DNA from: Pontibacter kalidii
GTDB lineage: Bacteria > Bacteroidota > Bacteroidia > Cytophagales > Hymenobacteraceae
Assembly: GCF_026278245.1 (NCBI RefSeq)
Contig: NZ_CP111079.1
Span: 2,172,501 to 2,236,500 of the forward strand
Reading direction: 5' to 3'
DNA length: 64,000 bases
Both the position numbers and the translations under genes were made by a program. Under the pieces are notes generated by a model. The model worked only from the letters and a program-made list of their open reading frames with translations. It was not told where the DNA came from and ran no database searches. How positions within the stretch are numbered: the first letter of the stretch is position 1; the number at the start of each line of letters is the position of its first letter. Shown piece by piece: positions 1 through 64,000 of the stretch.

Positions 1-1599
1 CTCGGCACGGTCGGTGCCGTCGGCAAGTATCACCATGCCTGCGTGCTGCGAGTAGCCGATGCCCACGCCACCGCCGTGGTGGAACGACACCCAGGTAGCC
101 CCACCGGCCGTGTTGGACATCAGGTTCAGCAGCGGCCAATCGGAGATAGCATCAGAGCCGTCTTTCATACCTTCTGTTTCGCGGTACGGAGAGGCCACGG
201 AACCGCAGTCGAGGTGGTCGCGGCCAATGACGATCGGTGCTTTTACCTTGCCTTCACGCACCAGTTGGTTAAAGAGCAGGCCCGCTTTCTCGCGCTCACC
301 CATGCCCAGCCAGCAAATGCGGCACGGCAGTCCCTGGAAGGCCACCTTCTCCTGCGCCTCGTCCAGCCACTTGATCATGTGTGTGTTTTCCGGGAACAGC
401 TCCTTCAGGGCCTCGTCGGTTACGCGAATATCCTCCGGGTCACCGGAAAGGGCAGCCCAGCGGAACGGCCCTTTGCCCTCGCAAAAGAGCGGACGGATGT
501 ATTCCGGCACAAAGCCTGGTATGTTGAAGGCATTTGCCTCGCCGCCCTGCTGGGCGAACTCGCGCAGGTTGTTGCCGTAGTCGAAGGTTTTGCTGCCACG
601 CTTTTGCAGTTCCAGCATAAAGCCCACGTGGCGGGCCATACTTTTCAGCGACAGCTCTTTATACTTGGCCGGGTCCTGCTGGCGCAGCTCCTTTGCCTCC
701 TGCAGGCTTAACCCGTTCGGCACATAGCCGTTGATCGGATCGTGGGCAGAGGTCTGGTCGGTGAGAATGTCCGGTGTGATGTTGTCAGCAAGCAGGCGTT
801 CCAGCACATCGCCGATATCCCCTACCAGGCCAACAGAGATTGCTTCGCCGCGCTCTTTCGCCTCCAGCACCCAGGCTTTTGCCTCCTCATAATCATAGGT
901 CATTTTGTCGATGTAGCGGGTCTCCAGGCGCTTTTTGATGCGGTCCGGGTCTACGTCTACTCCTAAAAAAGTGGCCCCGGCTATGGTGGCTGCCAGTGGT
1001 TGAGCACCGCCCATGCCCCCTAAGCCGCCCGTCACGAGCAGCTTGTGGCGCAGGTCGCTGTTAAAGTACTTATCGCCGCAGGCAGCGAAGGTCTCGTAGG
1101 TTCCCTGAAGGATGCCCTGCGAGCCGATGTAGATCCAGCTGCCCGCCGTCATCTGTCCGTACATGATCAGGCCGCGCTTGCGCAAGTCGTTAAAGTACTC
1201 CCAGGTGGCCCAATGCGGCACCAGGTTAGAGTTGGCGATGAGCACGCGCGGTGCCTCGGCGTGCGTACGCACCTTGCCTACCGGCTTACCCGACTGCACC
1301 AGCAGGCTCTCGTCCTCCTCCAGCTCCAGCAGTACTTTGATGATCTTGCGGGCATCCTCCGGCGTACGCGCCGCCTGGCCGGTGCCGCCGTATACCACCA
1401 GGTCGGCTGGGGCTTCGGCTACCTCGTCGGTCAGGTTGTTGAGGAACATGCGCAGCGCCGCCTCTGCCTGCCAGTTCTTGCAGTGAAGCTCCGGCCCACG
1501 CGGGGGAATGTAGGTCGGGTGGTTGGCGTATTGCTGTATAAATTGCTCAGCGGTGAGGCCGGCTCTTGGTGAGGTTGCTGTGGCAGCGGATGAATTCAT
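1..1599 (-). CDS. hutU: Urocanate hydratase (urocanase), 3' end outside window
   Basis: Catalyses hydration of urocanate to imidazolonepropionate, the second step of histidine degradation, using tightly bound NAD+ in the cytoplasm. Translating the minus strand from the ATG at 1599 gives 533 codons open to the window edge, including the urocanase segments [30 protein letters not shown] and, close to the left edge, [19 protein letters not shown]. The family is usually about 550-560 residues, so only a short C-terminal stretch should be missing. No other hut gene is in the window; any partners would lie to the left. It is divergent from the methyltransferase at 1721 with a 121-bp shared upstream region. 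Identification is from conserved sequence blocks and is very secure. Confidence 0.97.
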
Positions 1600-1720
1600 A
1601 GTTCTTATTCCAGTTTGGGTTTGTTCAATAATCTGAAAAAATACTTAAAAAAGACAGCAAAAGCGTGCTAATTTTAGATGCAGCAGCCTATCCTGCTGAT
1701 CCAATTATACTTTTATACCT

Positions 1721-2356
1721 ATGTTTCACCTGCCCCTTTCCTCCGCCCCTGCCCAATTCGGCAACATCGATATCTACCTCTTCGACCAGTTGCTGAAAGG
1801 CCGTATCCAAAAAGGCATGAGACTGCTGGACGCGGGCTGCGGGACCGGCCGGAACATACAGTACCTGCTGCAGACCGGGGTAAAAGTATACGGTGCCGAT
1901 GCCTCCGAAGAAGCTATTGCAAAGGTACGCGCGATGGCGTCGGAACTTGCTCCTACCCTATCGCCGAAGAACTTTGTAGTGGCAGACCTGGCACAATTGC
2001 CTTTTGCGGAAGAGATGTTTGAGGTAGTGCTGTGCAGCGCCGTACTGCACTTTGCCCGTGATGAAGCCCATTTCAGAAGTATGGTGCAGGAGCTGTGGCG
2101 GGTGCTGCAGCCAGGAGGCATGCTGTTCTGCCGCCTCGGCACCTCCATCGGCCTGGAAGGTAAGCTGCAACAGGTAGAACCGGGGAAGTATAAAATGGCG
2201 CACGGGCCGGTCTGGTTTCTGGCAGATGAGTCGCTGCTGCGGGAACTGATTCATACTTTAAGGGCGGAGATGCTGGAGCCGCTGAAAACCGTGCTGGTGG
2301 AGCAGGAACGAAGTATGACGACGCTGGTGCTGCGTAAAAAGGGCCGGGATTTTTAA
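1721..2356 (+). CDS. Class I SAM-dependent methyltransferase
   Basis: A 211-residue protein with the class I methyltransferase glycine loop LLDAGCGTGRN near residues 36-46 (SAM binding), an acidic motif II after the GADAS strand, and the motif LCSAVLHF and LWRVLQPGGMLF that are typical of small-molecule (UbiE/Methyltransf_11-type) enzymes. The substrate cannot be told from sequence. The ATG at 1721 follows a TATACTT-rich spacer without a Shine-Dalgarno sequence. The gene stands alone, divergent from hutU. Confidence 0.85.
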   Translation: MFHLPLSSAPAQFGNIDIYLFDQLLKGRIQKGMRLLDAGCGTGRNIQYLLQTGVKVYGADASEEAIAKVRAMASELAPTLSPKNFVVADLAQLPFAEEMFEVVLCSAVLHFARDEAHFRSMVQELWRVLQPGGMLFCRLGTSIGLEGKLQQVEPGKYKMAHGPVWFLADESLLRELIHTLRAEMLEPLKTVLVEQERSMTTLVLRKKGRDF

Positions 2357-3279: not shown

Positions 3280-5721
3280 ATGACATCACCCTTTACCAGA
3301 ACCCTCTGGCTACTGCTTCTGCTGCCCTTACTCACAACAGGTATGGCGGTGGCCCAGAAGCTCCCAGGCATTGCCTCTAAAACCGCGGGCATGCAGAAAT
3401 TCCCCGGCTACTTTACCTTTTACTATGATGATGCCTCGGGCAAAGTATGGCTGGAGGTAGACAAGCTGAACCAGGAATTCCTGTACGTGAACTCCCTCCC
3501 CTCCGGCCTCGGCTCCAACGACATTGGCCTGGACCGCGGCCAGCTCGGCGGGGAAAGGATAGTATACTTTGAGAAGATAGGCCCAAAGGTGATGCTCGTG
3601 CAGCCCAACCTCGCTTACCGCGCCATCACAGAAAACAAAAACGAGACCCGCGCCGTGGAGGAGTCCTTTGCCAAGTCTATCCTTTGGGGGTTCAAAGCCG
3701 AGGCTGAGGATGGAGGAAGGGTATTGGTGGACGCCACCGATTTCCTGCTCCGCGACGCCCACGACGTAGTAGGAAGTATAAAACGCACCAAGCAAGGCAC
3801 CTATAAGCTCGACGCCAGCCGCTCGGCCGTTTACCTGCCCCGCACCAGGAACTTCCCACAGAACACCGAGTTTGAGGCCACGCTCACCTTTACCGGAGGC
3901 GAGGATGCCGGCCGTTATGTGCGCGAGGTAGCGCCGGATGTGCAGGCCCTCACGCTACGCCAGCACCACTCCTTCATTGAGCTGCCCGACAACAACTATA
4001 CGCCGCGAGAGGCCGATCCGCGTGCCGGCTTCTTCGGCATCTCCTACTTCGATTATGCCACACCAGTGGATGAGAACATCGAAAAGCGCTTCATCGCCCG
4101 CCACCGCCTGCAGAAAAAGAACCCTGCGGCCAAGGTATCAGAGGCTGTGGAGCCGATCGTATACTACGTAGATAACGGCGCGCCGGAGCCTATCCGCACT
4201 GCCCTGCTGGAGGGAGCCCGCTGGTGGAACCAGGCTTTTGAGGCTGCCGGATACAAGGACGCTTTCCGGGTGGAGGTTTTGCCGGAGGGTGCCGACCCGA
4301 TGGACGTGCGCTACAACATCATCCAGTGGGTGCACCGCAGCACGCGCGGCTGGTCCTACGGCGCCTCAGTGGTAGACCCGCGCACCGGCGAGATCATCAA
4401 GGGGCACGTATCGCTGGGCTCCCTGCGCGTGCGCCAGGACTACCTGATAGCAGAAGGTTTGCTGGCGCCTTACGAGGAGGGCAAGCCGACAAGCAATGCG
4501 ATGATGGAGATGGCGCTGGCGCGTATCCGGCAGCTATCGGCGCACGAGCTGGGCCATACGCTGGGCATCATGCACAACTACGCCGCCAACAACAATGCCT
4601 CCGTCATGGATTACCCGCACCCGCAAGCCAAGCTGGACCGCGCCGGCAACATCGACCTGAGCAAGGCCTACGGTACAGGTATAGGCGAATGGGACAAGCT
4701 GGCTGTGGCCTACGGCTATCAGGACTTCCCGAAAGGCACCCATGAAAAGCAGGCGCTGGATGAGCTGCTGGCACAGGGTATAGCCCGTGGCCTCACCTTC
4801 ATCTCTGACCGCGACGCCCGCGCAGCTGGCGGGGCACACCCTACCGCCCATCTCTGGGACAACGGCGACAATGCCACAGACGAACTGCTTAATGTGCTGA
4901 AAATACGCGAGAAGGCCCTGCAGAATTTCTCTGAGAAGAACATCAAACCCGGCGCTCCCATGAGCACGCTGGAGGACGTACTGGTACCCATCTACAACTT
5001 CCACCGCTACCAGACAGAGGCAGCAGCCAAACTGATTGGCGGTGTAGAGTATACCTATGCCGTGCGTGGCGACAAACAAGTGGTGACGCAGGTGCTGGAC
5101 AAAAGGGAGCAGCAAAAGGCGCTGGACGCCCTGCTGAAGACGATCTCACCGGAGGTGCTCACCCTGCCGGAGAACATCATTGCTCTTATTCCACCGCGGG
5201 CGCCGGGGCTCCGCAACAGCCGCGAACTGTTTGCCAAGCGCACCGGCCTCACCTTCGACCCACTGGCAGCCGCCCAGGCTTCGGCCGATTTTTCTGTATC
5301 ATTCCTGCTGCACCCGGAGCGCGCCTCGCGTTTGGTGGAGCTGGGGGCCCGCACCAACAGCCTCAGCCTGCAGGACGTAACAAAGCAGGTGCTCGAAACC
5401 ACCTGGAAGAGCCGCCGGCAGAATGGGTTGGCGGCACAGGTACAGCTGCAAACCGAGCAGGTGGTACTCACCCACCTGCTGGCGCTGGCCCAGAATGACG
5501 ATGCCTCCTATCAGGCACGTGCCATAGCTACTGCTGCCTTGAACAATATCAAACAGCACGCCACCAGCCAGGCCAGGCGCACCCGCGACGACGGGTATAA
5601 GGCCCACCTGGAATTTGCCTTGGCCAGAATAGAGAATCCGGAGGAGATCAAACCAACCAAAGCACAAGACCTGCCGCCTGGTGCCCCTATCGGAAGCGGG
5701 GAGTATATGGGGTGTGAATAG
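3280..5721 (+). CDS. Secreted zinc-dependent metalloprotease (DUF5117/DUF4953 type)
   Basis: An 813-residue exported protein from the ATG at 3280, with signal peptide MTSPFTRTLWLLLLLPLL ending near AVAQ. The zinc site HELGHTLGIMH lies near residue 422 (HExxH plus third His), followed by SVMDYPHP, the Met-turn-like segment of metzincin-type enzymes. The N-terminal part matches the DUF5117/5118 architecture common in Bacteroidota and the C-terminal part is helical. An in-frame ATG-like start at 3238 would put 14 residues before the signal and is less likely. The physiological substrate is unknown. A terminator follows at 5744. Confidence 0.88.
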   Translation: MTSPFTRTLWLLLLLPLLTTGMAVAQKLPGIASKTAGMQKFPGYFTFYYDDASGKVWLEVDKLNQEFLYVNSLPSGLGSNDIGLDRGQLGGERIVYFEKIGPKVMLVQPNLAYRAITENKNETRAVEESFAKSILWGFKAEAEDGGRVLVDATDFLLRDAHDVVGSIKRTKQGTYKLDASRSAVYLPRTRNFPQNTEFEATLTFTGGEDAGRYVREVAPDVQALTLRQHHSFIELPDNNYTPREADPRAGFFGISYFDYATPVDENIEKRFIARHRLQKKNPAAKVSEAVEPIVYYVDNGAPEPIRTALLEGARWWNQAFEAAGYKDAFRVEVLPEGADPMDVRYNIIQWVHRSTRGWSYGASVVDPRTGEIIKGHVSLGSLRVRQDYLIAEGLLAPYEEGKPTSNAMMEMALARIRQLSAHELGHTLGIMHNYAANNNASVMDYPHPQAKLDRAGNIDLSKAYGTGIGEWDKLAVAYGYQDFPKGTHEKQALDELLAQGIARGLTFISDRDARAAGGAHPTAHLWDNGDNATDELLNVLKIREKALQNFSEKNIKPGAPMSTLEDVLVPIYNFHRYQTEAAAKLIGGVEYTYAVRGDKQVVTQVLDKREQQKALDALLKTISPEVLTLPENIIALIPPRAPGLRNSRELFAKRTGLTFDPLAAAQASADFSVSFLLHPERASRLVELGARTNSLSLQDVTKQVLETTWKSRRQNGLAAQVQLQTEQVVLTHLLALAQNDDASYQARAIATAALNNIKQHATSQARRTRDDGYKAHLEFALARIENPEEIKPTKAQDLPPGAPIGSGEYMGCE

Positions 5722-5743
5722 ATACTGGAGTACAGGCCACCGT

Positions 5744-5776
5744 AAACCGCCCTTTCGCTACGAAGGGGCGGTTTTT
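5744..5776 (+). terminator. Rho-independent terminator after the zinc protease
   Basis: Fourteen-bp stem (5744-5757 with 5761-5774, one G-T pair) closed by a 3-nt loop, then a short T run. It is 23 bp beyond the protease stop. Confidence 0.85.
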
Positions 5777-7804
<2,028 letters not shown>

Positions 7805-7830
7805 CATAGGGTATACTGCATATTTATAGA

Positions 7831-7865
7831 CAGAAGGGAGGGCTATTTGCCCTCCCTTTCTGCTT
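7831..7865 (+). terminator. Rho-independent terminator after tmm-like gene
   Basis: About 13-bp stem AGAAGGGAGGGC/GCCCTCCCTTTCT with one bulged base and a TATTT loop, 27 bp after the stop codon; the T-rich tail is weak. Confidence 0.65.
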
Positions 7866-7929
7866 TAACACTTATGGGTTTATACTTGCCCGCAGCCACT
7901 GCTTCGTCTGAAGTATAAATGTATAGAGG

Positions 7930-8076
7930 CACACGCACCGGGAGGCGCTAAGCCTGGCAAATGCTTGCTACGCCGCCCGGTTCTCCGGTTGGAAGCAGGG
8001 AGTTTCTGCGATGTTCGTAGCGGTGGAGTAAAGTATGAAAAGCGCCCCTGCGGGTTTTGGCAGGGGCGCTTTTTTA
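7930..8076 (+). ncRNA. Candidate small RNA ending in a terminator
   Basis: Stem 7937-7947/7971-7981 (ACCGGGAGGCG against CGCCGCCCGGT, one mismatch), an inner small hairpin, further complementary segments (GCAG/CTGC around 7994-8009), then the terminator 8041-8070 plus T run. No known RNA family was recognised; 6S, SRP, tmRNA and common riboswitch signatures were looked for and not found. The 5' end is a guess. Confidence 0.3.
8041..8076 (+). terminator. Strong rho-independent terminator without an upstream gene
   Basis: Perfect 11-bp stem AGCGCCCCTGC/GCAGGGGCGCT with 8-nt loop followed by TTTTTTAT. The nearest upstream gene already has a terminator at 7831. Confidence 0.8.
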
Positions 8077-8442
8077 TGGATAGCCATCTTCTGTAGTGAA
8101 CTACCTTTGACTAAAGAACCTTGAGGTAATAGGGCCTTCTCCCAATGCACCACTTATAGTCAGGCCGCTGGTGATAGCTATTCCTGCACGCTGCTGTACT
8201 TAATCAACAACCGGTATAATTATACTTTACTTTCAGGGGCGGGTGTCTTAAAGTACAGGAGCAAACCGCTAAAATCTCCACCTTATGCTTATTTATCTAA
8301 CACATAATCAGTAAATTCACCCGGGCATAATGTTTAGCCCACAGGAATATTAACATAACCTAAACCATTACATGCTACCTGAGCGAGCCGGTATTCACCT
8401 GCTGGTAAGCTCCTTATTTTTTCATTCTCAGTTTCATATCTC

Positions 8443-9786
8443 GTGCATTCTACTACTAACCTATCTTTTAAAGAAACCTTCTTTATTGGCCTGATGCTCT
8501 TCGCTATTTTCTTTGGCGCGGGCAACCTTATTTTTCCGCTGTCGCTGGGCCAGGCCGCCGGCGAAAACCTGGTGCCTGCTATTGTGGGCTTTCTGCTGAC
8601 AGGTGTCGGGCTTCCGCTGCTCGGTGTTATCGCCATCGGAATCTCCAAAAATGAAGATGTAGCCTCTATTTCCGCCAAGGTGCACCCTGTCTTCGGCCTG
8701 CTGTTTCCGGTGGTTATTTACCTGACCCTGGGTCCCCTGTTTGCCGTGCCAAGAACCGGGACAGTATCCTACGAAATCGGCATTGTGCCCTTCCTGCCCG
8801 AAGCGTTGCGGACATCCGCCTGGGGGATGGCGCTATACTCAGTAGTATTCTTCACCATTACGTACCTGCTTGCCCTGAATCCCAGCAAAATAGTGGATCG
8901 CATCGGCAAGATACTGACCCCGGTGCTGCTGCTGATTCTTTTCGTGCTACTGACAAAAAGCGTGGCTGATCCGCTCGGCAGTACCCAGCTGCCGGTGGGC
9001 TTATATGAAAGCGCGCCTTTCTTTAAAGGGTTTCAGGAGGGATATTTAACCATGGATACCATCGGCTCCTTTGTGTTTGGCCTGATTGTGATAAATACGA
9101 TACGCGCTAAAGGGGTGGAGAGCACCCGGCAGATAGCCAAAGTAACCGCTACGGCAGGCTTTGTAGCCGCCGCAGGCCTGGCCATTGTATACATCGGGCT
9201 GGCTTATACGGGCGCCACCAGTGTAGAAACGCTCGGGCATTTAGAGAACGGTGGCCTTATCATCACCAATGTATCGAACCTGCACTTCGGCCTTTTGGGG
9301 AATATGATCCTGGGCGTTGCCATTACGTTTGCCTGCCTGACCACCAGTATTGGTTTGATCGTGGCCTGTGCCAGCTTCTTTAACACGCTCCGTCCTTCCA
9401 TCTCTTATAAAACCTACGTGCTGATCCTGACGGCTGTGAGCGCCGTAATCTCCAATGTAGGGCTAACGCAGATCATTTCCTTCTCTATACCGGTGCTGGT
9501 GGCCATTTACCCGATCGTTATCGTGCTGATCGCTTTGACCTTGATGGGGTCGGCGCTCAAAAACAGGAACACCGTTTATACCTGGGCTGTTTTGTTTACC
9601 GGTATCATCAGTTTGTTTGACGGCATCAAAGCGGCGGGTTTTGAGCTCGGCATCCTTGCTTTTTTGGGGGAGCACCTGCCCTTGTTCAGCCTTGGCATGG
9701 GGTGGCTCATACCGGCCATCCTGGGCGGTATCATAGGCTACGGGCTTTCGTTCAGGCAAAAAGCGTATGCGCTGGAAGAAGCATAG
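8443..9786 (+). CDS. brnQ: Branched-chain amino acid carrier (LIVCS family)
   Basis: A 447-residue inner-membrane sodium- or proton-coupled importer of Leu, Ile and Val. It is hydrophobic throughout, with about twelve membrane segments, and begins with the BrnQ signature FIGLMLFAIFFGAGNLIFP followed by GVGLPLLGVIAIG and TLGPLFAVPRTG. The start is GTG at 8443, giving a short hydrophilic N-terminus before the first helix; no better start lies downstream within the conserved region. It is a single transcription unit closed by the terminator at 9807. Confidence 0.93.
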   Translation: MHSTTNLSFKETFFIGLMLFAIFFGAGNLIFPLSLGQAAGENLVPAIVGFLLTGVGLPLLGVIAIGISKNEDVASISAKVHPVFGLLFPVVIYLTLGPLFAVPRTGTVSYEIGIVPFLPEALRTSAWGMALYSVVFFTITYLLALNPSKIVDRIGKILTPVLLLILFVLLTKSVADPLGSTQLPVGLYESAPFFKGFQEGYLTMDTIGSFVFGLIVINTIRAKGVESTRQIAKVTATAGFVAAAGLAIVYIGLAYTGATSVETLGHLENGGLIITNVSNLHFGLLGNMILGVAITFACLTTSIGLIVACASFFNTLRPSISYKTYVLILTAVSAVISNVGLTQIISFSIPVLVAIYPIVIVLIALTLMGSALKNRNTVYTWAVLFTGIISLFDGIKAAGFELGILAFLGEHLPLFSLGMGWLIPAILGGIIGYGLSFRQKAYALEEA

Positions 9787-9806
9787 CGCATACTTTTAGA
9801 CAATAG

Positions 9807-9845
9807 AAAAAGGGCAGGCATCAAGCACGATGTCTGCCCTTTTTT
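9807..9845 (+). terminator. Rho-independent terminator after brnQ
   Basis: About 16-bp stem around AGGGCAG/CTGCCCT (one wobble) with an AAGCAC loop, followed by a T run. The A-rich 5' flank means it could also stop leftward transcription of the convergent gene at 9916. Confidence 0.85.
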
Positions 9846-9915
9846 GCGATAATACATGCTACTACCTGACGGGAAGCAGGAAGCCAGGGAGACGCCGGTA
9901 TAAAACTTCGGCTTT

Positions 9916-10173
9916 CTACCGGTCTAGCATACCCTGCACATCAAGCCCCTCCACATAGGGCTCCAGCACGGCCATGGCATTGGCCGACTTCTTAAAGGTG
10001 CTGATCACCTGCGCCTCTTCCCCTGTCCATACTTCCACAAAGGCGTTATGCAAAGTATAAAGCGTCACCGTCCAGCTGTTAAATTGGCGCTGCCCCAGGA
10101 GGGTGCCTTCTTTGGCTAACGTTTCGGCCTGGCTCCGCAGCGGCAGCCGCTCAAACATGGAGTGTTCCAGCAT
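9916..10173 (-). CDS. Small hypothetical protein
   Basis: An 85-residue soluble protein starting MLEHSMFERLPL, with a compact alternating pattern (WTVTLYTLHNAFVEVWTG) suggesting a beta meander, ending in a helix. I do not recognise a named family. The open frame extends upstream to 10296, but that part reads like AT-rich non-coding DNA with AAGTATA words, so the ATG at 10173 (or 10158) is preferred. It is convergent with brnQ and divergent from the M28 peptidase. Confidence 0.65.
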   Translation of the reverse strand: MLEHSMFERLPLRSQAETLAKEGTLLGQRQFNSWTVTLYTLHNAFVEVWTGEEAQVISTFKKSANAMAVLEPYVEGLDVQGMLDR

Positions 10174-10393
10174 ACATATTCTGTTATGGTGCGTTCTTGA
10201 TAAGTACGGAAACAGCAATTTAGTTTCCGTTTTTCCGGATAAAGTATAGCTTTGGAAGCGGATTTGGCGCTCAGTCAGGAAAAACCTCACGGCCATACTT
10301 TACAGCTTAAAACGATTGTTGATTAAACCATCCTGCCGCTTTCGCCTCTAATGTGAAACAACTATATACCTATTCCATATTTACTAAACCCTT

Positions 10394-11947
10394 ATGAAAA
10401 GAAAAGTTTACGCTTTCGCCTTTTTCCTGCTCCTGAGCGGCAACCTGGCGCAGGCACAGGTGAAGGACCCCGTAGTGGAGAGCATTGTGAAGGAGGCGAA
10501 CGAGAACTCACAGTTGGAGGTGCTCGCACATGAGCTACTGGACGGGATCGGCCCGCGCCTGGTAGGCACCCCCGAGATGCAGAAAGCGCACGACTGGGCG
10601 GTGGCAAAGTATAAAAGCTGGGGCATTGAAGCCCGCAACGAAAAGTGGGGTGAGTGGCGCGGCTGGCAGCGCGGCACCACGCACGTAGACATGGTGCACC
10701 CTCGGGTGCAGTCGCTGGAAGCGACGCAACTGGCCTGGAGCCCCAGCACGAAAAGCAAAGGCGTTACCGCCGAGGTGATCGTACTTCCTGAAGTGCAGGA
10801 CTCCGTAGCTTTCCAGCGATGGCTGCCAAATGCTAAAGGCAAGATCGTGATGATCTCGATGATGCAGCCGACCGGCAGACCGGACTATAACTGGGAAGAA
10901 TTCGCTACCAAGCAATCGCTGGAGAAGATGAAGCAGCACCGCGACTCGCTGAACGATGCCTGGAGTGAGCGCATGAAGACGATCGGTTACAACGGCCGCA
11001 CACTTCCTGCTGCCCTGGAGCAGGCCGGTGCCGTGGGGGTGGTTACCTCCAACTGGTCGCGCGGCTTTGGCGTGAACAAGATTTTCGGCGCCTATACCAA
11101 GAAGATCCCAAGCATTGATATGGCCCTGGAGGATTACGGCATGCTGTACCGTCTGGCGGAATCTGGCAGCAAGCCACAAATCAGGATTCAGGCTGATTCC
11201 AAAAACCTGAAGAACGCTCCCACCTTTAACACCATCGCCGAGATCAAAGGTACCGAGAAGCCGGAGGAGTACGTGATACTCTCTGCGCACTTCGACTCCT
11301 GGGATGGCGGCACCGGCGCAACGGACAACGGCACCGGCACGATTGTGATGATGGAGGCCATGCGCATCCTCAAGAAAATGTACCCCAACCCGAAGCGTAC
11401 CATCCTGGCCGGCCATTGGGGCAGCGAGGAGCAGGGCCTGAACGGCTCGCGTGCCTTTGTGGCCGATCATCCGGAGATCGTGAAGAACACGCAGGCCGTG
11501 TTTAACCAGGACAACGGTACGGGCCGCGTGGCCAACATCTCGGGCCAGGGCTTCCTGCACGCCTACGACTTTTTGGGCCGCTGGCTGAGCGCCGCCCCAA
11601 ATGAGATCACCAGCTCGATTGAGACGCATTTCCCGGGCTTCCCGGGCGGTGGCGGCTCCGACCACGCCTCTTTTGTGGCAGCTGGCGCTCCGGCCTTCAT
11701 GCTGAGCTCGCTTAGCTGGTCCTACGGCACGTACACCTGGCATACCAACCGCGACACCTATGACAAGATCGTGTTTGATGATGTGCGCAGCAACGCCATC
11801 CTGGTGGCCATACTTGCCTACAAAGCCAGCGAAGACCCTAACCTGTCGAACCGTGAGCGCATCATCCTGCCCATCGACCAAAGAACAGGTGAGCAAAGAA
11901 CCTGGCCGGCCCTGCGAGAGCCTACCCGCAAAGGCGGTCTGGACTAA
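10394..11947 (+). CDS. Secreted M28-family zinc aminopeptidase
   Basis: A 517-residue exported exopeptidase. Signal peptide MKRKVYAFAFFLLLSGNLAQA is followed by a PA-like inserted domain (about residues 120-260) and the M28 catalytic domain with metal ligands in SAHFDSWDGGTGATDNG (His about 299, Asp about 311), catalytic Glu in GSEEQGLNGS, and later SDHAS and HTNRDTYDK. The family removes N-terminal amino acids using two zinc ions. It is a single unit with a terminator at 11976. A second M28 enzyme of the window (43547) differs in domain spacing. Confidence 0.9.
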   Translation: MKRKVYAFAFFLLLSGNLAQAQVKDPVVESIVKEANENSQLEVLAHELLDGIGPRLVGTPEMQKAHDWAVAKYKSWGIEARNEKWGEWRGWQRGTTHVDMVHPRVQSLEATQLAWSPSTKSKGVTAEVIVLPEVQDSVAFQRWLPNAKGKIVMISMMQPTGRPDYNWEEFATKQSLEKMKQHRDSLNDAWSERMKTIGYNGRTLPAALEQAGAVGVVTSNWSRGFGVNKIFGAYTKKIPSIDMALEDYGMLYRLAESGSKPQIRIQADSKNLKNAPTFNTIAEIKGTEKPEEYVILSAHFDSWDGGTGATDNGTGTIVMMEAMRILKKMYPNPKRTILAGHWGSEEQGLNGSRAFVADHPEIVKNTQAVFNQDNGTGRVANISGQGFLHAYDFLGRWLSAAPNEITSSIETHFPGFPGGGGSDHASFVAAGAPAFMLSSLSWSYGTYTWHTNRDTYDKIVFDDVRSNAILVAILAYKASEDPNLSNRERIILPIDQRTGEQRTWPALREPTRKGGLD

Positions 11948-20676: not shown

Positions 20677-22065
20677 ATGATAGACGAAGAGAGTATTCAA
20701 CAACTGAAAGCAAGTATGCGGGGCGCCATCATGCAGCCCGGCGATAGCGGCTTTGAAGAGGCCCGCAAGGTTTACAACGCCATGATCGACAAGCACCCGC
20801 GCCTGATTGCCAAGTGCGAGGATGTGGCTGATGTGATTTACACCGTGAACTTTGCCAGAGATAACGACCTGCTCCTCGCGGTGCGGGGTGGCGGCCACAA
20901 CGGCGGGGGCCTCGGCATTTGCGATGACGGAGTGGTACTGGACCTCTCCCACCTAAACGGGGTGCAGGTGAACCCGGAGAAGAAGACGGTGCGCGTGGAA
21001 GGCGGCTGCACCTGGGGCAAGGTAGACCACGCCACCCACGCTTTCGGGCTGGCAACACCGAGTGGCATTATCTCGACCACAGGGGTAGGCGGACTTACGC
21101 TCGGGGGCGGCATCGGGCACCTGACGCGTGCCTATGGCCTGAGCATCGACAACCTACTGGAGGCCGATGTGGTGCTGGCGGACGGCAGCCTGGTAAAGGC
21201 AAGTGAAACAGAACATGAAGACCTATTCTGGGCCATTCGCGGGGGCGGCGGCAATTTCGGGGTGGTAACCTCTTTCCTGTTCAAGCTGCACCCCGTGGAC
21301 ATGGACTATGCCGGCCCGATGCTCTGGGAACTAAACCAGGTGAAGGAGGTGATGCAGTGGTGGCGCGATTTCATACTGGAGGCACCCGAAGACCTGAACG
21401 GCTTTTTTGCCTTTGTGCAGGTACCGCCCGGAGAACCTTTCCCGGCAGAACATCATAACAAGCTTGTAGGCGGCGTGATTTGGTGTTATACCGGAGATCC
21501 GGAGAAAGTTGAAGAGGTGTTCGGCCCTATCCGAAGTATGCAACCTCAGCCGATCATCGACCTGGTTGGCCCGCTTCCGCACCCGGTTCTGCAAAGTATG
21601 TTCGACCCGCTTTACCCGCCCGGCCACCAGTGGTACTGGCGCGCCGACTTTGTGAATGAGATCAGCGACGAGGCCATCGACCGCCACCTGGAATTTGCCC
21701 AAAAGCTGCCCAGCCCCCAGTCATCCATGCACCTGTACCCCATCAACGGCGCAGCACATGAACTGGATAAGGACGCCACGGCCTGGAGCTTCCGGGACGC
21801 CAACTGGTCGCAGGTCATTATCGGCGTGGATCCCGATCCGGCCAACAAGGAGAAAATAACCAACTGGACAAAGGCCTACTTTGACGCCCTGCACCCCTAC
21901 TCAGCGGGTGGCGCCTATGTTAACTTTATGATGGAGGAAGGAGACGAGCGCATCCGGGCCACGTACCGCGACAATTATGCCCGGCTGGCGCACATCAAGT
22001 ATAAGTATGACCCTAACAACCTGTTCAAGGTAAACCAGAACATTAAGCCGGCGGTGCTGGCATAA
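20677..22065 (+). CDS. FAD-linked oxidase, berberine-bridge-enzyme type
   Basis: A 462-residue flavoprotein. The FAD_binding_4 domain has His74 in AVRGGGHNGGG and Cys111 in VEGGCTWGKVD, the pair that gives bicovalent 8-alpha-histidyl/6-S-cysteinyl flavin in BBE-type oxidases. GVGGLTLGGGIGHLTRAYGL and the C-terminal YDPNNLFKVNQNI (BBE domain) complete the match. Such enzymes oxidise sugars or other alcohols with oxygen as acceptor. No signal peptide. An upstream in-frame start at 20590 adds non-conserved residues, so MIDEESIQQL at 20677 is preferred. Confidence 0.9.
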   Translation: MIDEESIQQLKASMRGAIMQPGDSGFEEARKVYNAMIDKHPRLIAKCEDVADVIYTVNFARDNDLLLAVRGGGHNGGGLGICDDGVVLDLSHLNGVQVNPEKKTVRVEGGCTWGKVDHATHAFGLATPSGIISTTGVGGLTLGGGIGHLTRAYGLSIDNLLEADVVLADGSLVKASETEHEDLFWAIRGGGGNFGVVTSFLFKLHPVDMDYAGPMLWELNQVKEVMQWWRDFILEAPEDLNGFFAFVQVPPGEPFPAEHHNKLVGGVIWCYTGDPEKVEEVFGPIRSMQPQPIIDLVGPLPHPVLQSMFDPLYPPGHQWYWRADFVNEISDEAIDRHLEFAQKLPSPQSSMHLYPINGAAHELDKDATAWSFRDANWSQVIIGVDPDPANKEKITNWTKAYFDALHPYSAGGAYVNFMMEEGDERIRATYRDNYARLAHIKYKYDPNNLFKVNQNIKPAVLA

Positions 22066-22156
22066 AGGCTCTGGTAGACGGCATGCGGGGTGGGGAAGTT
22101 CCGCTGAAAGTATAGCAAAGCAGTGATAGGCCCTGTACTTCCTGCAGCGGTTTTTG

Positions 22157-22164
22157 TACCTTTG
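22157..22164 (+). promoter_or_regulatory. -7 box TACCTTTG that decides the dinB start
   Basis: Exact TAnnTTTG match. It overlaps the upstream part of the open frame, so translation should begin downstream of the predicted transcription start near 22171, supporting the TTG at 22184. Confidence 0.6.
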
Positions 22165-22183
22165 CAAGTATAAAAGCCATACT

Positions 22184-23266
22184 TTGGAACAGCCCATCCG
22201 CAAGATCATTCACATCGACATGGACGCCTTTTTTGCCTCCGTGGAGCAGCGCGATAACCCCGAGCTGCGCGGAAAGCCCGTGGCTGTGGGCGGCTCTAAA
22301 GCGCGTGGCGTGGTGGCCGCAGCCAGCTACGAGGCCCGCAAGTATGGAGTGCACTCCGCCCTAGCCTCCAAAATAGCGGCCCAGCGCTGCCCGCAGCTCG
22401 TATTTGTAAAAGCCCGGTTTGATGTCTACAGTGCCGTATCGAGGCAGATACGCGAAATCTTTTATTCTTATACCGACTTGGTGGAGCCGCTCTCGCTGGA
22501 TGAGGCCTACCTGGATGTGACGGAGAACAAGATCGGCGTGCCTTCGGCCAGCATCATCGCCAAAGAGATCAAACAACGGATTTTGGAGGAGACAGGCCTT
22601 ACCGCCTCTGCCGGTGTATCGTTCAACAAGTTTCTGGCCAAGATCGCCTCCGATATGAACAAGCCCAACGGCTTCACGCTGATAACGCCGGACAAGGCCG
22701 AGCAGCTGGTGGCGGGGCTGGAGATCGAGAAATTTCATGGCATTGGCAAAGTAACGGCGGCCAAGATGCAAAGCATGGGCATTTTGACCGGAGCCGACCT
22801 GCGGGAGCGAACGGAAGAGGAACTGGTGCGAAACTTTGGCAAGGTGGGACGCTACTACTACCGGGTGGCCCGCGCACAGGACGAGCGCGACGTGCAGCCG
22901 CACCGCATCCGGAAATCCATTGGCTCGGAGCGCACCTTTGATACAGATTTAACGGAGGAAGATGACATGCTGGAGCGCCTGCAGCACCTTTCCGAGGAGG
23001 TGGCCAAGGACATGGCCCGCCTCCAGGCCAGTGCCAAAACGGTTACGCTCAAGATAAAGTACTTTGACTTTACGCTCAACACCCGCAGTAAGACGTACTT
23101 AGGTGAGTTTACCTCGGCCGATGCCATTTACACCATTGCCCGCGAGTTGCTGCGCTCGCCGCAGCTGCCGGCTTACCCGGTACGCCTGCTGGGCATCTCC
23201 GTCTCCAGCCTCACCTACCAGCACGACCGCCTGCGCGAAGGATATCAGCTGACGCTGGAGTTGTAA
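22184..23266 (+). CDS. dinB: DNA polymerase IV (Y family)
   Basis: A 360-residue error-prone translesion polymerase. Catalytic acidic residues are in IIHIDMDAFFASVEQ (Asp12, Asp14) and PLSLDEAYLDV; a helix-hairpin-helix region (FHGIGKVTAAKM) and a C-terminal little-finger domain follow. The likely start is TTG at 22184 (reading MEQPIRK); the frame continues upstream to a TTG at 22154 but the promoter box at 22157 lies inside that extension. A terminal beta-clamp-binding motif is not obvious. Convergent with the alpha/beta hydrolase. Confidence 0.93.
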   Translation: MEQPIRKIIHIDMDAFFASVEQRDNPELRGKPVAVGGSKARGVVAAASYEARKYGVHSALASKIAAQRCPQLVFVKARFDVYSAVSRQIREIFYSYTDLVEPLSLDEAYLDVTENKIGVPSASIIAKEIKQRILEETGLTASAGVSFNKFLAKIASDMNKPNGFTLITPDKAEQLVAGLEIEKFHGIGKVTAAKMQSMGILTGADLRERTEEELVRNFGKVGRYYYRVARAQDERDVQPHRIRKSIGSERTFDTDLTEEDDMLERLQHLSEEVAKDMARLQASAKTVTLKIKYFDFTLNTRSKTYLGEFTSADAIYTIARELLRSPQLPAYPVRLLGISVSSLTYQHDRLREGYQLTLEL

Positions 23267-39370: not shown

Positions 39371-39445
39371 AGAGCTGCGCTCGCTACCTTCGAACTCTCG
39401 TTCTCGGTAGTCCAAGGAGGGGAGCCATACTTACTACTTTCCCTG

Positions 39446-39977: not shown

Positions 39978-40038
39978 AGCATAGCCAAAACACTAACCAC
40001 CGCTACAGAGTAAGTATAAACCACTAACCTGAAAAGCT

Positions 40039-43546: not shown

Positions 43547-45199
43547 ATGAAATGGAAATGTTTAGCGGCAGGCCTTTGCCTGGCTTTGGCCTCCTCAGCA
43601 GCTTATGCCCAAACGGCTGAGGTGCCCAGGCCCGTGGCCAAGGCAATGAAGAAAGTAAAACCCGCCGACATCAGCGCGCACATCGCCTACCTGGCCGACG
43701 ATAAATTGCTGGGCCGCAAGCCGGGCACGCCGGGCTTTCAGCTGGCTGTAGACTATGTTACCGACCAGTTCAGAAAGCTGAACGTGAAGCCTGCCGGGGA
43801 GAACAACACGTACCTGCAAACGGTGCGGGTGCGCACCGCTTACACCAACCCGAAGGCTACCATGCAGCTAACTGCCGATACAGCGGGCACTGTGGAGCTG
43901 GCATATGGCAAGGACTTTACGATCTTCCCGAACGCAGGCCAGGAGCAGGTGTCGCTGCAGGCGCCGCTGGTGTTTGCGGGCTTCGGCATCAGTGCCCCGG
44001 ACATGAACTATGATGACTATGCCAACATAGATGCCAGAGGAAAAGTAGTGGTGATCGTGCGCGGCACACCGGAGGGTTTCCCTTCTACGGTGGCATCTTA
44101 CAGCACCGATTACCAAACCATTCTGAACACCGCTGCCAAAAACGGGGCCGTGGGTGTACTGGTCGCATCGATGAACCCGAATGGGGGGCTGCCTGACTTC
44201 TCCACCCGTGGCATGTCCAGCGTAATGGGTGCCGATGGGAAAGTGGCCGCCTCGCGCAGTCACCATGAGGCTATCAAGCTGCTGGGGATGGTGCATTTCA
44301 ACGTTTTGCAGAAGCTGATGGCCGCCGCCGGGCAGGACCTGCAGCAGGTAGCCGGTAGCCTCCGCAGCGGTACACCCGCCTCTACACCGCTTCCGTTTAG
44401 CATCAGCAGCAACTACAGCAACCGCTACGAGGATATCGAGACATACAACGTGGTGGGCAAAATCGAAGGCTCCGACCCGGTACTCAAAAACGAGTACGTG
44501 GTGCATAGTGCCCACCTCGACCACGTAGGCGTAGGCAAGCCAATCGATGGCGACTCGATCTACAACGGCGCCCACGACAACGCTTCCGGAGTGGCCAGCC
44601 TGCTGGAGATTGCCAAGATATACGACAACCTAAAACAGAAGCCGAAGCGCTCTATACTAATCGTGATGGTAACGGCGGAGGAAATGGGCCTGCTGGGCTC
44701 TGCCTACTTTGCTAAATTCCCTACCGTGCCAGCCAGCCAGCTAGTAGCCAACGTGAATACCGACATGCCAACCCTTATCGCGCCGCTGCTGGCGGTGGTG
44801 CCGCTGGGAGCCGCGCACTCGTCTTTGCAGGATGAGGTACAGCAGGCCAGCGAGTACCTGGGTTTGGATGTGGAGGAAGACCCGGAGCCAGAGCAGAACC
44901 GCTTTGTGCGCAGCGACCAGTACAGCTTTGTGGTACAGGGCGTACCGGCGCTCCATATCAAGTATGGCAACAAAACCGCAGACGGCAAAAACAACCTGGA
45001 CGAGACCGTGAAAGTATGGCGCGAGAAATACTACCATAAACCGCAGGACAACTTCGAGGGCGGCACCTTCGATTTTGACGCCGCCAAAAAGTATGTGCAG
45101 CTCAACTTCCTGATCGGCTACCTGGTGGCCCAGGACGTGCAAAAGCCTACCTGGAACGAAGGTGACTTCTTCGGCAACAGGTTTGGCCGGGCTAAATAG
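43547..45199 (+). CDS. Secreted M28-family peptidase with PA domain
   Basis: A 550-residue exported aminopeptidase. Signal MKWKCLAAGLCLALASSAAYAQ; a start at 43529 (MINKRI) is equally possible. A PA domain (about 135-280; LVFAGFGISAPDMNYDDYAN, GKVVVIVRGTP) is inserted before the M28 domain, whose zinc ligands and catalytic Glu are in YVVHSAHLDHVG, YNGAHDNASGVASLLE, VTAEEMGLLGS and VNTDMP, with SDQYSF and HIKYGN later. A shared terminator with the opposing SusE gene follows. Confidence 0.9.
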   Translation: MKWKCLAAGLCLALASSAAYAQTAEVPRPVAKAMKKVKPADISAHIAYLADDKLLGRKPGTPGFQLAVDYVTDQFRKLNVKPAGENNTYLQTVRVRTAYTNPKATMQLTADTAGTVELAYGKDFTIFPNAGQEQVSLQAPLVFAGFGISAPDMNYDDYANIDARGKVVVIVRGTPEGFPSTVASYSTDYQTILNTAAKNGAVGVLVASMNPNGGLPDFSTRGMSSVMGADGKVAASRSHHEAIKLLGMVHFNVLQKLMAAAGQDLQQVAGSLRSGTPASTPLPFSISSNYSNRYEDIETYNVVGKIEGSDPVLKNEYVVHSAHLDHVGVGKPIDGDSIYNGAHDNASGVASLLEIAKIYDNLKQKPKRSILIVMVTAEEMGLLGSAYFAKFPTVPASQLVANVNTDMPTLIAPLLAVVPLGAAHSSLQDEVQQASEYLGLDVEEDPEPEQNRFVRSDQYSFVVQGVPALHIKYGNKTADGKNNLDETVKVWREKYYHKPQDNFEGGTFDFDAAKKYVQLNFLIGYLVAQDVQKPTWNEGDFFGNRFGRAK

Positions 45200-45286
45200 C
45201 CGGCAGAAGTGTAAATTAAAGTATAACGCCTGTAGAGAAGCCGTACATCTCGGCTAAGGGTTTATGCTTTCTCTAAAAGGTAAAAT

Positions 45287-45322
45287 AAAACAGCCCGGCA
45301 GCAAAAGCTACCGGGCTGTTTT
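45287..45322. terminator. Bidirectional terminator between M28 peptidase and susE
   Basis: Twelve-bp stem AAAACAGCCCGG/CCGGGCTGTTTT with a 12-nt loop; T-rich exits on both strands. Confidence 0.85.
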
Positions 45323-45342
45323 GGTTTTATATGTGGCCTTAC

Positions 45343-46353
45343 TTATTCTATTGTGTACGTGTAGCCAGACGGGGTCAAGTTTAGCTTCACGGTGTATTGC
45401 TTGGTGGCACCTACTTGAATGTTGCCGCCATCATACTTGAGCTGAGGTCCGGAACCGTCCAAGCCGAGGTTCACATCCCAGCCATCATTCTCCCTGAACT
45501 TGAAAGCTTTACCGCTTTCCAGGTTGATCGTGGCGGTCCACTCATACTTTCCTTTGCTGGCAGAAACCAGTGTCATGTCAGTATCGTTGTCCCATCCACC
45601 CGGGGTCGCATCACCAATAACTCCCCAGTTAGATTTAACCAGGCTGTACGTTCCAGCTTTAGGGTTGATGCGCAAGCGGTAGAAGCCATCGGCCGGAACG
45701 GTGATGTTATCCTCATCCGTGTCCGTCAGGGCACCTTCTTCTCCCTTTTTGGCCCCCATGTCGCCATCCCATCCTGTGTTAGTAGGAAGGATCTTCAAGC
45801 CATCGCCATCTACGGTGAAGTAACCGAACACATCATACCACTCGGTCACCACCCCATCATCTTCTTTTGTATGGCGCATCATCTTGATTCCGTTGGTTGG
45901 CTCCCAGCCAGCAGCAGACGACCCACCGACCAAATAATAGTTTTTGATTGGGGAAGGCTTGAAATGCACAGTTCTTGTCTTCTCCGTTTGGCCACCGCCA
46001 CCTACAGCAACAGCTTTCAGCACGTAATCACCGGACCAAGAGCCGTCTTCCGGCACCTCTACCTCCGTAGTGAAAACAAATCCATTTCCTTCGTTAACCA
46101 GCGTCTCAGTGTGAACTGTTTCAGTAGGGTTATCTTCATGAGCCAAGGAAATCTGCACTTCCCTGGCCTGGTTTGCCAACAACTTTACCTCAAACGTTTC
46201 ACCGAAGAAGACTGTATCCGGTGTCTGCGCGTCAAGCGACACTACAAGTTCATCCAACTCATGCTCTACCTTGTCGCAAGAGCTGAACGTCAGCAGGGCA
46301 CCGCTAAGCGAGAGCAGCGCCATAAGCCTGTATAGTATATTTACTCTTCTCAT
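45343..46353 (-). CDS. susE: SusE/SusF-like outer-membrane starch-binding lipoprotein
   Basis: A 336-residue surface lipoprotein (lipobox in LLTFSSC). An N-terminal SusE domain (about 25-125; SLDAQTPDTVFFGETFEVKLLA) is followed by two tandem CBM-like modules (NYYLVGGSSAAGWEPTNGIKM and SNWGVIGDATPGGWDNDTDM), the arrangement of SusE/SusF, which bind starch at the cell surface. Last gene of the susCDE operon, 18 bp after susD. Only one such protein is present rather than the SusE/SusF pair of Bacteroides thetaiotaomicron. Confidence 0.88.
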   Translation of the reverse strand: MRRVNILYRLMALLSLSGALLTFSSCDKVEHELDELVVSLDAQTPDTVFFGETFEVKLLANQAREVQISLAHEDNPTETVHTETLVNEGNGFVFTTEVEVPEDGSWSGDYVLKAVAVGGGGQTEKTRTVHFKPSPIKNYYLVGGSSAAGWEPTNGIKMMRHTKEDDGVVTEWYDVFGYFTVDGDGLKILPTNTGWDGDMGAKKGEEGALTDTDEDNITVPADGFYRLRINPKAGTYSLVKSNWGVIGDATPGGWDNDTDMTLVSASKGKYEWTATINLESGKAFKFRENDGWDVNLGLDGSGPQLKYDGGNIQVGATKQYTVKLNLTPSGYTYTIE

Positions 46354-57648: not shown

Positions 57649-57690
57649 CAACCTACCGAATACGACTACCCAATACAAACTTAATACCCC

Positions 57691-58815: not shown

Positions 58816-58930
58816 CTTTACGCTTTATAAGACCCTTTTGAGCTTCGTTTTATTATTGAACATACTTCTACCGACAGCGTCTGGCGCTGCAGCTGCATCC
58901 TGTACCTGGCTCACCCGGAATACGCTCCCT

Positions 58931-58958
58931 CCCGCTAATCAAAATAAAATTTAGCGGG
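58931..58958. repeat. 8-bp perfect inverted repeat in the spacer before the second regulator
   Basis: CCCGCTAA (58931-58938) and TTAGCGGG (58951-58958) separated by an A/T-rich 12-nt loop. No T tract follows on the plus strand; it may be an operator or an imperfect transcript stop. The spacer 58816-59107 holds no gene. Confidence 0.4.
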
Positions 58959-59107
58959 CACAAAACCTTAGTTTTCCCGTACATCCAATTTACCTGTGTA
59001 TCATATTTTTTATTGGAAGTATACCAACATCCCTACACCCTGCTGAGGCCTGCTTATACATTAAACCAGGCTGCAGGCTAGTGGGCTATGTAGGATAAGG
59101 CAAGCCT

Positions 59108-59506
59108 ATGTTTAAGTGTGTGTATATTATCGATGACGACGAGGTGAGCGCTTTCCTGACAGAGGCGATGCTTGCTACGGAGCACTTTGCCCGGAAGTAT
59201 GAATCCTTTCGGAACCCCGGCAAGGCGCTGCAGTGCCTGCTACCCCTCCTGCAGCAGAACGAGCACCACAAGATACCTGACGTCATTTTCCTGGACCTGA
59301 ACATGCCCTGCATGGATGGGTGGGAGTTCCTGGATGCCCTTTCCCTGCACGCCCCCTCGATAAAGAGCTGCAGCCTGCTGTACGTGCTTACCTCGTCCGT
59401 TGATTTCCATGACGTAAGACGCGCCCAGAAGTATGATTTCCTGGCAGGTTTTCTGCAAAAGCCGCTGGAGGAGGAAACGATCAGAAACCTGCTGCACAAG
59501 GCCTGA
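59108..59506 (+). CDS. Single-domain response regulator (CheY-like), second copy
   Basis: A 132-residue receiver domain closely resembling the regulator at 57250: IIDDDEVSAFLTEAML, VIFLDLNMPCMDGWEFLDAL, YVLTSSVDFHD and GFLQKPLEEE. No output domain. Unlike the first copy it is separated from its presumed kinase by 292 bp. Confidence 0.9.
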   Translation: MFKCVYIIDDDEVSAFLTEAMLATEHFARKYESFRNPGKALQCLLPLLQQNEHHKIPDVIFLDLNMPCMDGWEFLDALSLHAPSIKSCSLLYVLTSSVDFHDVRRAQKYDFLAGFLQKPLEEETIRNLLHKA

Positions 59507-59656
59507 AGTATACTTTAGAAGCAGAGAGTGCTAATAAGTTTATACTTCTGATGCCGCCTGCTGCCCGCTAATTGCTGCAAACTCCGCCATACTTCCTCGC
59601 TGCCGTCCACGCCCTTAGTATTTGCATCGTTGAGTTTCAAACTCCCCCATACTTTA

Positions 59657-63086: not shown

Positions 63087-63265
63087 ACGTTAGGGGAGCT
63101 TATACTTTAGAGCGAATCGCTAAAGATAAAATTTACTTTATTAAACTCCTCTTCCACAGTATAAAAGCTACGGCTCCGGCGAGGTGCCGGCCATCCAACC
63201 TCAAACCTTATAAAGTGGAAGCTGTTAAGCAGGGAATAACCATACACAAACGAAGAACAAATACC

Positions 63266-64000
63266 ATGTCTATACTTTTCTCCCCCCTCACCCTCCGGGG
63301 CATCACCTTTAAAAACCGTATTGCCGTGTCGCCCATGTGCATGTACAGCAGCCAGGATGGCTTCGCTACCGATTGGCACCTGGTACACCTGGGCAGCCGG
63401 GCCGTGGGTGGCGCCGGACTGATTATTGCAGAGGCCACTGCCGTCGTGCCGGAAGGCCGTATTACGCCGCACGACCTGGGCATCTGGAAGGATGAACACA
63501 TCGAAGGGCTGCAGCGCATTACGAATTTTATCTCCGAGCAAGGATCCGTACCGGGTATACAGCTTGCCCACGCGGGCCGTAAAGCCAGCCACCGCCGCCC
63601 CTGGGAGGGCGGAGCAGCCATACTTCCGGAAGAGGAGAACGGCTGGCAAACCGTGGCCCCCAGTGCTATTCCGTTCTCTGAGGAAAACCCGGTGCCGCAC
63701 GAAATGACGCTGCAGGAGATCGAGGATTTTAAGGATGCTTTTGAAGCTGCTGCCATACGTTCGCTGAAGGCAGGTTTTAAAGTGATCGAGATACATGCCG
63801 CACACGGCTACCTGCTGCACGAATTCTATTCCCCGCTCAGCAACCAGCGCACCGATAAGTATGGCGGCTCCTTTGAGAACCGCATCCGGCTGCTGCTGGA
63901 GGTAACCGAGCGGGTGCGGCAAGTATGGCCGGAGGAGCTGCCGCTGCTCGTGCGTATCTCGGCCACCGACTGGACGGATGGCGGCTGGACCGGCGAAGAC
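63266..64000 (+). CDS. Old Yellow Enzyme family NADH:flavin oxidoreductase, 3' end outside window
   Basis: The 245 codons visible start MSILFSPLTLRGITFKNRIAVSPMCMYSS, typical of YqjM-like (thermophilic-type) ene reductases with the active-site Cys in SPMCMYS, the FMN segment QLAHAGRKAS with the His-His-type substrate pocket, IHAAHGYLLHEFYSPLSNQRTDKYGGS and RISATDW. Family length is about 340-365, so the C-terminal third lies beyond the right edge. Reduces activated C=C bonds with NAD(P)H. Divergent from GH92 with 179 bp between; an imperfect hairpin CTTTAG/CTAAAG lies at 63105-63125. Confidence 0.92.
   Translation, partial: MSILFSPLTLRGITFKNRIAVSPMCMYSSQDGFATDWHLVHLGSRAVGGAGLIIAEATAVVPEGRITPHDLGIWKDEHIEGLQRITNFISEQGSVPGIQLAHAGRKASHRRPWEGGAAILPEEENGWQTVAPSAIPFSEENPVPHEMTLQEIEDFKDAFEAAAIRSLKAGFKVIEIHAAHGYLLHEFYSPLSNQRTDKYGGSFENRIRLLLEVTERVRQVWPEELPLLVRISATDWTDGGWTGED

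Follow-up and report, generated by a model that had tools for sequence, protein, structure and literature searches.

Uptake signal sequences (USS) of the Pasteurellaceae build up by biased uptake. These frequent short words let cells prefer their own DNA (PMC7811141, PMC1939737). The DNA uptake sequences (DUS) of the Neisseriaceae occur as dialects with a fixed core, one genome carrying two dialects at once, and biased uptake, by which word-bearing alleles are preferentially imported, is named there as the most plausible hypothesis for their multiplication (PMC3630211). In the surveyed papers, uptake words are described for these two families only. Here we describe a short word, AAGTATA, which is strongly over-represented in a stretch of 64,000 nucleotides of the Pontibacter kalidii genome (assembly GCF_026278245.1, contig NZ_CP111079.1, C1:2172501-2236500; hereafter the window) and which may have a comparable role. 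On most genomic features tested, the word appears to match DUS and USS. Like the DUS of the Neisseriaceae (PMC3630211), it is present in thousands of copies, varies between lineages in dialects that differ by one or a few letters, keeps a fixed core, includes genomes with two dialects and forms overlapping dyads. It differs from DUS in its phylum, in being a word of seven to eight letters with a TATA core, in the lack of a convincing type IV pilus ATPase and in that eleven of the Pontibacter genomes have no strong word. Compared with USS, both the word and the phylum are different.

The window contains 90 copies of AAGTAT and 90 of its complement ATACTT, together 180 compared with 20.3 expected from composition (about 9x). 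The first-pass annotation of the window had claimed well over 150 sites, a figure borne out by the count; its G+C content of about 53% has to be corrected to 55.0% according to the base counts. The longer word AAGTATA/TATACTT occurs 104 times versus 4.6 by composition. Among its one-letter neighbours in the window, AAGTATG reaches 63 copies and AGGTATA 26, while the remainder have 2-12 copies each. Across the whole genome (G000; 5.05 Mb, two contigs), AAGTATA is found 4,451 times on the forward and 4,410 times on the reverse strand, in total 8,861 copies or one per 570 bases. The reversed word, i.e. the same letters read backwards, served as composition-matched control and occurs 170 and 186 times (356). 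The enrichment is hence stronger than originally claimed, and it is not shared equally by words of the same composition. The base following AAGTAT is A or G in a fraction of 0.92 of 764 sites in G000, and the same holds for the next base in 0.79. Sites were also scored as AAGTATR (R = A or G).

Neither codon usage nor amino acid content explains the excess, as judged from a synonymous shuffle and from a similar enrichment between genes. In 199 genes taken from 284 kb of G000 with a simple gene caller, AAGTATR occurs 387 times versus 68.3 ± 7.6 after within-gene shuffling of synonymous codons (z 42, 5.7-fold), a shuffle that keeps the codon usage of each gene but not its codon pairs. AAGTATA ranks first among all 7-mers in this comparison, and the 44 genes of the window alone hold 111 AAGTATR versus 17.7. 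The spacers contain 276 copies versus 31 predicted from a trinucleotide Markov model (8.9x). Per kb, AAGTATR amounts to 5.3 in spacers and 1.7 in genes; the reversed word rises in parallel (0.67 and 0.18), and thus genes and spacers are enriched by a similar factor. In the same genes and spacers, the sister words AGGTATR and AACTATR are mildly in excess (1.5-1.8x). The annotation had weighed selection on the DNA word itself, of the kind known for HIP1, uptake sequences or motifs of chromosome organisation, against codon-pair or mutational bias as alternative. A bias in codon pairs, dinucleotides or other composition without selection on the word would fit the mild excess of the sister words, and codon pairs are left uncontrolled by the shuffle. 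We regard this explanation as refuted by the shuffle, by the spacers, in which codon pairs do not apply, and by the counts of the two further dialects described below; the sharp word boundaries, the one-letter changes between relatives and the existence of genomes without a strong word in the same genus also speak against it. The favouring of the word itself is supported further by the dialects and their specific conservation, a pattern that fits a word read by some cellular machine.

The distribution of the word was surveyed in 150 genomes of the family, 50 of Pontibacter and 100 of five other genera. The ratio of AAGTATA to the reversed word is 8.8-38.5 in 23 of the 50 Pontibacter genomes and at most about 2.5 in the five other genera. 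In an order-level survey of 118 genomes (109 outside the family), no genome exceeded about 2.2x except that of the window. Samples of 20 kb from the Pontibacter genomes exposed a second and a third word, and whole-genome counts were then made. The strong word was AAGTATA (A dialect) in 23 genomes, AGGTATA (G dialect) in 12 genomes of one clade and AACTATA (C dialect) in seven genomes of another clade, with lines drawn at ≥8x the control for A and 10x for G. The 12 genomes of the G dialect hold 5,748-9,303 copies of AGGTATA, 17.7-38.4x the reversed control. AACTATA reaches 12,524-13,168 copies in G119, G121, G085 and G099. Three of the 50 genomes (G018, G033 and G058) are bilingual, with 6,094-11,674 AACTATA and 5,110-9,116 AAGTATA. 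Eleven are without a strong word (G002, G013, G028, G075, G097, G111, G115, G117, G127, G129 and G131; hereafter wordless), a class that includes weak excesses in G117 and G131; no other strong short word was seen in samples of 20-40 kb of each of these eleven genomes. The consensus sequences AAG-TATA, cAGG-TATA-G and cAAC-TATA-G all keep the TATA, so that related lineages carry variant words around a common core. In samples of the C dialect, 62 site pairs among 812 sites overlap as the dyad AACTATAGTT, compared with 11 pairs among 764 sites for the A dialect in G000.

On trees of rpoB-rpoC, with weak support for some inner branches and unequal base composition among the rows, a single change suffices for the G dialect and another for the C dialect. 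Presence versus absence of a word requires four changes with codon positions 1 and 2 and three with all positions, and the dialect states together need eight changes on one tree and seven on the other. Genomes of the A dialect are placed on either side of the midpoint root, and this dialect is probably the ancestral one. G117 was considered as a fourth dialect and not claimed as such, CGGTATA, GGGTATA and AGGTATA being at 3.2-4.3x in 120 kb and AGGTATA at 5.7x genome-wide. This weak excess of GGTATA with A, G or C in front, observed in G117, L326 and other loci, possibly reflects a decaying or relaxed dialect. Besides its 10,614 A words, G043 has a weak excess of AACTATA (3,531 versus 849 reversed); here a second dialect may be at an early stage outside the C clade.

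The conservation of sites was followed in codon alignments of the coding sequence around comEC and a gene for a ComEA-like protein from 21 genomes, 20 of them grouped (including six of the eleven wordless genomes) and G089 on its own. The background consisted of other 7-mers of like G+C content, and the comparisons share sequences and are thus not independent. Within dialects, identity was 0.57 for A (778 comparisons), 0.64 for C (680) and 0.80 for G (377), with backgrounds of 0.33, 0.37 and 0.46. Between dialects or towards wordless genomes it dropped to 0.02-0.09, below the background of 0.11-0.19. In rpoBC the contrast was smaller, with 0.53-0.67 within dialects (background 0.29-0.41) and 0.15-0.33 across (background 0.25-0.29). 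Overall, a word is kept above background among genomes of one dialect and mostly not between dialects. Around comEC and the ComEA-like gene, aligned A sites read as the G word in 65 of 407 cases in G genomes and in 23 of 783 in wordless genomes; for rpoBC the numbers are 397 of 1,842 and 125 of 1,666. Part of the G dialect therefore probably arose in place by one transition. The A words of the bilingual genomes are kept in pure C relatives at 0.07 (background 0.23), 46 of 401 being C words there, and they are shared with distant pure A genomes at 0.23 versus a background of 0.10.

The second contig of G000 (73.8 kb) encodes a TraG-type conjugation ATPase above the NCBIfam cut-off, along with matches to a MobB relaxase and TraJ below theirs. 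On this plasmid AAGTATA occurs 20 times versus 11.3 by composition (1.8x), whereas a chromosome sample of 304 kb has 551 copies versus 26 (21.2x) and 25 of the reversed word. Mobile DNA, as judged from this one plasmid, which is a small sample, is thus near background for the word. On plasmid C2 (L170, 1244-2390), eleven direct copies resembling ttcAAGTATtgycwc are arranged with uneven spacing and are possibly plasmid iterons.

Transformation within the phylum is described for Riemerella anatipestifer, a distant relative. It needs ComEC, DprA and a helix-hairpin-helix protein and also involves ComF, RecA and surface proteins of an unusual type; an uptake word is not mentioned in the parts consulted (PMC8459023). 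Similar to Riemerella, all 50 Pontibacter genomes have matches to ComEC, DprA and a ComEA-like helix-hairpin-helix protein of about 315 aa (encoded near C1:4,822,405 in G000), and the genes are broken in few. Open frames were found for ComEC in 47, for the ComEA-like protein in 49 and for DprA in 48 of the 50 genomes. In G000, the ComEA-like protein matches the ComEA repeat, and together with the ComEC N-terminal model this match lies above the NCBIfam cut-off, while the full-length ComEC_Rec2 and comEA models stay below. The gene comEC contains an internal stop in G046 and G089 and has a split frame in G121. Gene dprA is broken in G046 and G089 only, and the ComEA-like gene in G089 only. That both broken dprA genes fall among the three genomes with damaged comEC has a chance of 3 in 1,225 if the events were independent. 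In the examined stretches of G089 nearly all other genes have normal length, one more looked short, and assembly errors are possible. Among the 23 A genomes, AAGTATA exceeds the reversed word least in G089 (8.8-fold), and the sites of G089 match those of its relatives at 0.45, compared with 0.58-0.80 among the relatives themselves, although this genome is also more distant. A second DprA-family gene besides the usual one was observed in G033 (C2:451482) and G097 (C61:1243).

The search for a receptor took in surface proteins and the neighbourhood of the competence genes. The DUF5689 surface protein type known from Riemerella is found in its short form in only 12 of the 50 Pontibacter genomes (PMC8459023). 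These short proteins (413-450 aa) all belong to word-rich genomes (three A including two bilingual, five G and four C). Their genes lie beside frames that, from our own reading, we take to be SusD- or SusC-like. In ten other Pontibacter genomes (five wordless, five A), DUF5689 is located inside proteins of 1,099-1,299 aa (L223-L232), possibly secreted nucleases with a lamin-tail domain. With this patchy occurrence DUF5689 was rejected as a universal receptor. Genes beside comEC in G111, G097 and G089 were suggestive at first and were dropped after their starts had been read; we take them to be genes of haem synthesis.

Our preferred reading, to which we assign a probability of about one half, is that the word labels DNA as self in natural uptake and arose in Pontibacter independently of the DUS of Neisseria and the USS of Haemophilus. 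A putative surface or periplasmic DNA-binding protein would prefer fragments that bear the word. These would pass via the ComEA-like protein and ComEC and recombine through DprA and RecA. As word-bearing alleles would be imported more often, the word would accumulate at all sites that tolerate it. Once the binding protein had changed, other letters would be favoured, giving rise to dialects around the TATA core, with bilingual genomes during the change. Uptake is our first choice because the bias in uptake itself multiplies words and because of the joint decay of competence genes. In its favour we count the copy number, in the thousands, of a word that is not a palindrome and is equally frequent on the two strands; the one-letter dialects around TATA, with one change each for G and C and three bilingual genomes; the conservation within dialects, the replacement of A sites by G words and the near-background plasmid; the competence genes in all 50 genomes, with comEC and dprA jointly broken in G089 and G046 and the lowest ratio in G089; the highest density in spacers between convergent genes; and the transformation of Riemerella with comparable genes. 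A word that is non-palindromic, present on two strands and in genes as well as spacers, near background on the plasmid, conserved by dialect and switched by one letter suggests that something within the cell or at its surface reads it. The wider proposal is put forward that Pontibacter has an independent uptake code, which would be the first of the Bacteroidota and comprise three or more dialects, bilingual intermediates, repeated losses and a receptor unrelated to type IV pilins; it is put forward more tentatively, at somewhat less than even odds.

A number of observations weigh against an uptake word, the weakest points being that competence genes are intact in the wordless genomes and that a receptor is missing. 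All eleven wordless genomes have open frames for ComEC (707-736 aa), DprA (374-385 aa) and the ComEA-like protein (314-331 aa). Loss of the word is hence not simply loss of competence, and a loss of specificity alone must be assumed. In G046 both comEC and dprA are broken, and no other genome of its clade has as many G words (9,303), so that its loss of competence would have to be very recent. G121 carries a full load of C words despite its split comEC frame. The genes are intact in G073, whose number of words per Mb lies below that of G089 and whose rpoBC value is equally low. Among the six aligned wordless genomes, the shared fraction is 0.04 for A words, 0.15 for G words and 0.23 for C words, with a background of 0.12; the sharing of C words above background is unexplained by uptake, and because of it conservation above background alone is no proof of use. 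In rpoBC, C genomes retain A words in a fraction of 0.33, compared with a background of 0.29. A pass by named genomes agreed with the result within dialects; it offered few sites across dialects, and some of these small samples lay above background. Even the near-background plasmid has 20 AAGTATA to five reversed words. No receptor was found, and no gene following the dialects was seen in the surroundings (about 10 kb) of comEC and of the ComEA-like gene. No convincing type IV pilus ATPase (PF00437) was detected in the 50 genomes, in a search that scored up to 31 of 45 first-look candidates per genome and did not extend to pilins: matches were weak and partial, three of 50 genomes passed the cut-off and the best rows fell in proteins of about 650 aa. 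A type IV pilus with a word-binding minor pilin, the ComP-type feature of Neisseria, is accordingly not recognised from this ATPase search, which speaks against a ComP-type route and not against uptake by another. Finally, no report of transformation in Pontibacter was seen in a literature that was searched only indirectly.

The main rivals of an uptake word are a repair process similar to that proposed for the highly iterated palindrome HIP1 and a nucleoid protein. In cyanobacteria, HIP1 is a very frequent word; some lineages have other palindromes in its place, along with methyltransferases that match them, and a model based on repair has been put forward (PMC4390886). In Pontibacter, a DNA methyltransferase and biased mismatch repair, acting as a mutational drive, would similarly create and keep the word, and a changed specificity would give a new dialect. 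This would account for the similar enrichment in genes and spacers, and since competence is not needed, wordless genomes with intact competence genes pose no difficulty. The cyanobacterial words are, however, GC-rich palindromes tied to methyltransferases (PMC4390886), whereas the Pontibacter word is AT-rich and asymmetric. The joint breakage of comEC and dprA in G046 and G089, the latter being last among the A genomes in word ratio, also speaks against this origin, which we consider unlikely. A site for chromosome organisation, bound genome-wide by a co-evolving nucleoid protein that does not organise plasmids, seems slightly less likely again. It agrees with the density of the word, its presence in all 13 sampled chromosomal regions of G000, its occurrence in both spacers and genes, and the near-background plasmid. 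The spacing, on the other hand, is uneven, ranging 7-fold from 6 to 42 copies over thirty 10-kb windows, and a near-complete replacement of thousands of sites within one genus would be easier by a drive through recombination.

Two further explanations concern the orientation and the spread of the word. Chi and the FtsK-orienting polar sequences (KOPS) are strongly strand-biased. A word of this kind, read by a helicase-nuclease of the AddAB type or by FtsK as recombination hotspot or replication-polar guide, would likewise be asymmetric, and in the 13 G000 regions the orientation relative to GC skew is indeed in weak excess on the G-rich strand (436 versus 347). This is nearly balanced and comparable to the preference for the gene strand (220 versus 171). 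The strand-bias check suggested in the first-pass annotation, scored here against GC skew and not against located origin and terminus positions, hence revealed no strong replication polarity along the chromosome arms. The density of the word is moreover far above that of Chi in E. coli, and a role of this type appears very improbable. A spread by mobile repeats that carry the word would fit some spacers with dispersed repeated text and word runs in one orientation; as the sole cause it is judged refuted by the 387 copies in 199 genes, and conservation was measured in coding alignments only.

Within the window, the 167 AAGTATR copies (84 forward, 83 reverse) are spread across genes and spacers in both orientations and all codon phases, in line with the earlier description. 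The longest run with gaps of ≤250 bases extends from 58861 to 59654 (nine copies: one reverse, four forward, four reverse). Clusters of six copies are located at 1706-2317, 21997-22346, 44960-45549 and, on the forward strand only, in a spacer at 39837-40018 that by eye has text in common with other G000 spacers; five copies at 30916-31178 are all on the reverse strand. The region 34,500-38,060, singled out by the first-pass annotation, does hold 18 AAGTAT/ATACTT sites (17 of them AAGTATR), and the scaled expectation by composition is about 1; the average of the window alone would give 10, and the local peak in this region is therefore no more than moderate. In G000, the density is highest in spacers between convergent genes (88 sites in 8.6 kb), followed by tandem (179 in 33.8 kb) and divergent ones (34 in 8.9 kb). 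One spacer has a terminator-like hairpin with the word on both sides. Sites within a few hundred bases of each other tend to point the same way. This tendency is stronger in spacers than in genes and is due in part to the dispersed repeated text with word runs that was seen by eye in some spacers. Such long spacers are found at 39066-40038 of the window, L166 2183-3228 and L169 2478-3212 and possibly represent a repeat family of Pontibacter spacers.

Outside Pontibacter, other words were observed in the order. In Larkinella (L044, L048, L049, L050 and L053), AAAACCG occurs 5,351-18,454 times per genome in five of five genomes, strand-balanced and 4.2-6.3x the reversed word, compared with 0.5-1.7x in seven other Cytophagales genomes; it may be a second, unrelated genome word or code of this type. 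In Adhaeribacter (L045 and L046), AAATATT was counted 27-38 times in 13-21 kb versus 2.8-4.4 expected.

The open PMC literature yielded no paper with at least two of the words AAGTATA, AGGTATA and AACTATA, none reporting an uptake word in Pontibacter and none treating uptake sequences of Pasteurellaceae, Neisseriaceae and Bacteroidetes together. The dialects, the gap between plasmid and chromosome and the competence genes go beyond what was noted in the window at first. If linked to methylation or chromosome organisation instead, the word would still be an unusually dense, asymmetric and unexplained genome word. If the word does serve uptake, it would represent a third, separate origin of uptake words in another phylum, in which the change of a recognition code across thousands of sites can be watched within one genus. 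Bacteria in which no type IV pilus ATPase is recognisable would then appear to possess a sequence-specific DNA importer of a new kind, and it would become easier to define which species can exchange genes.

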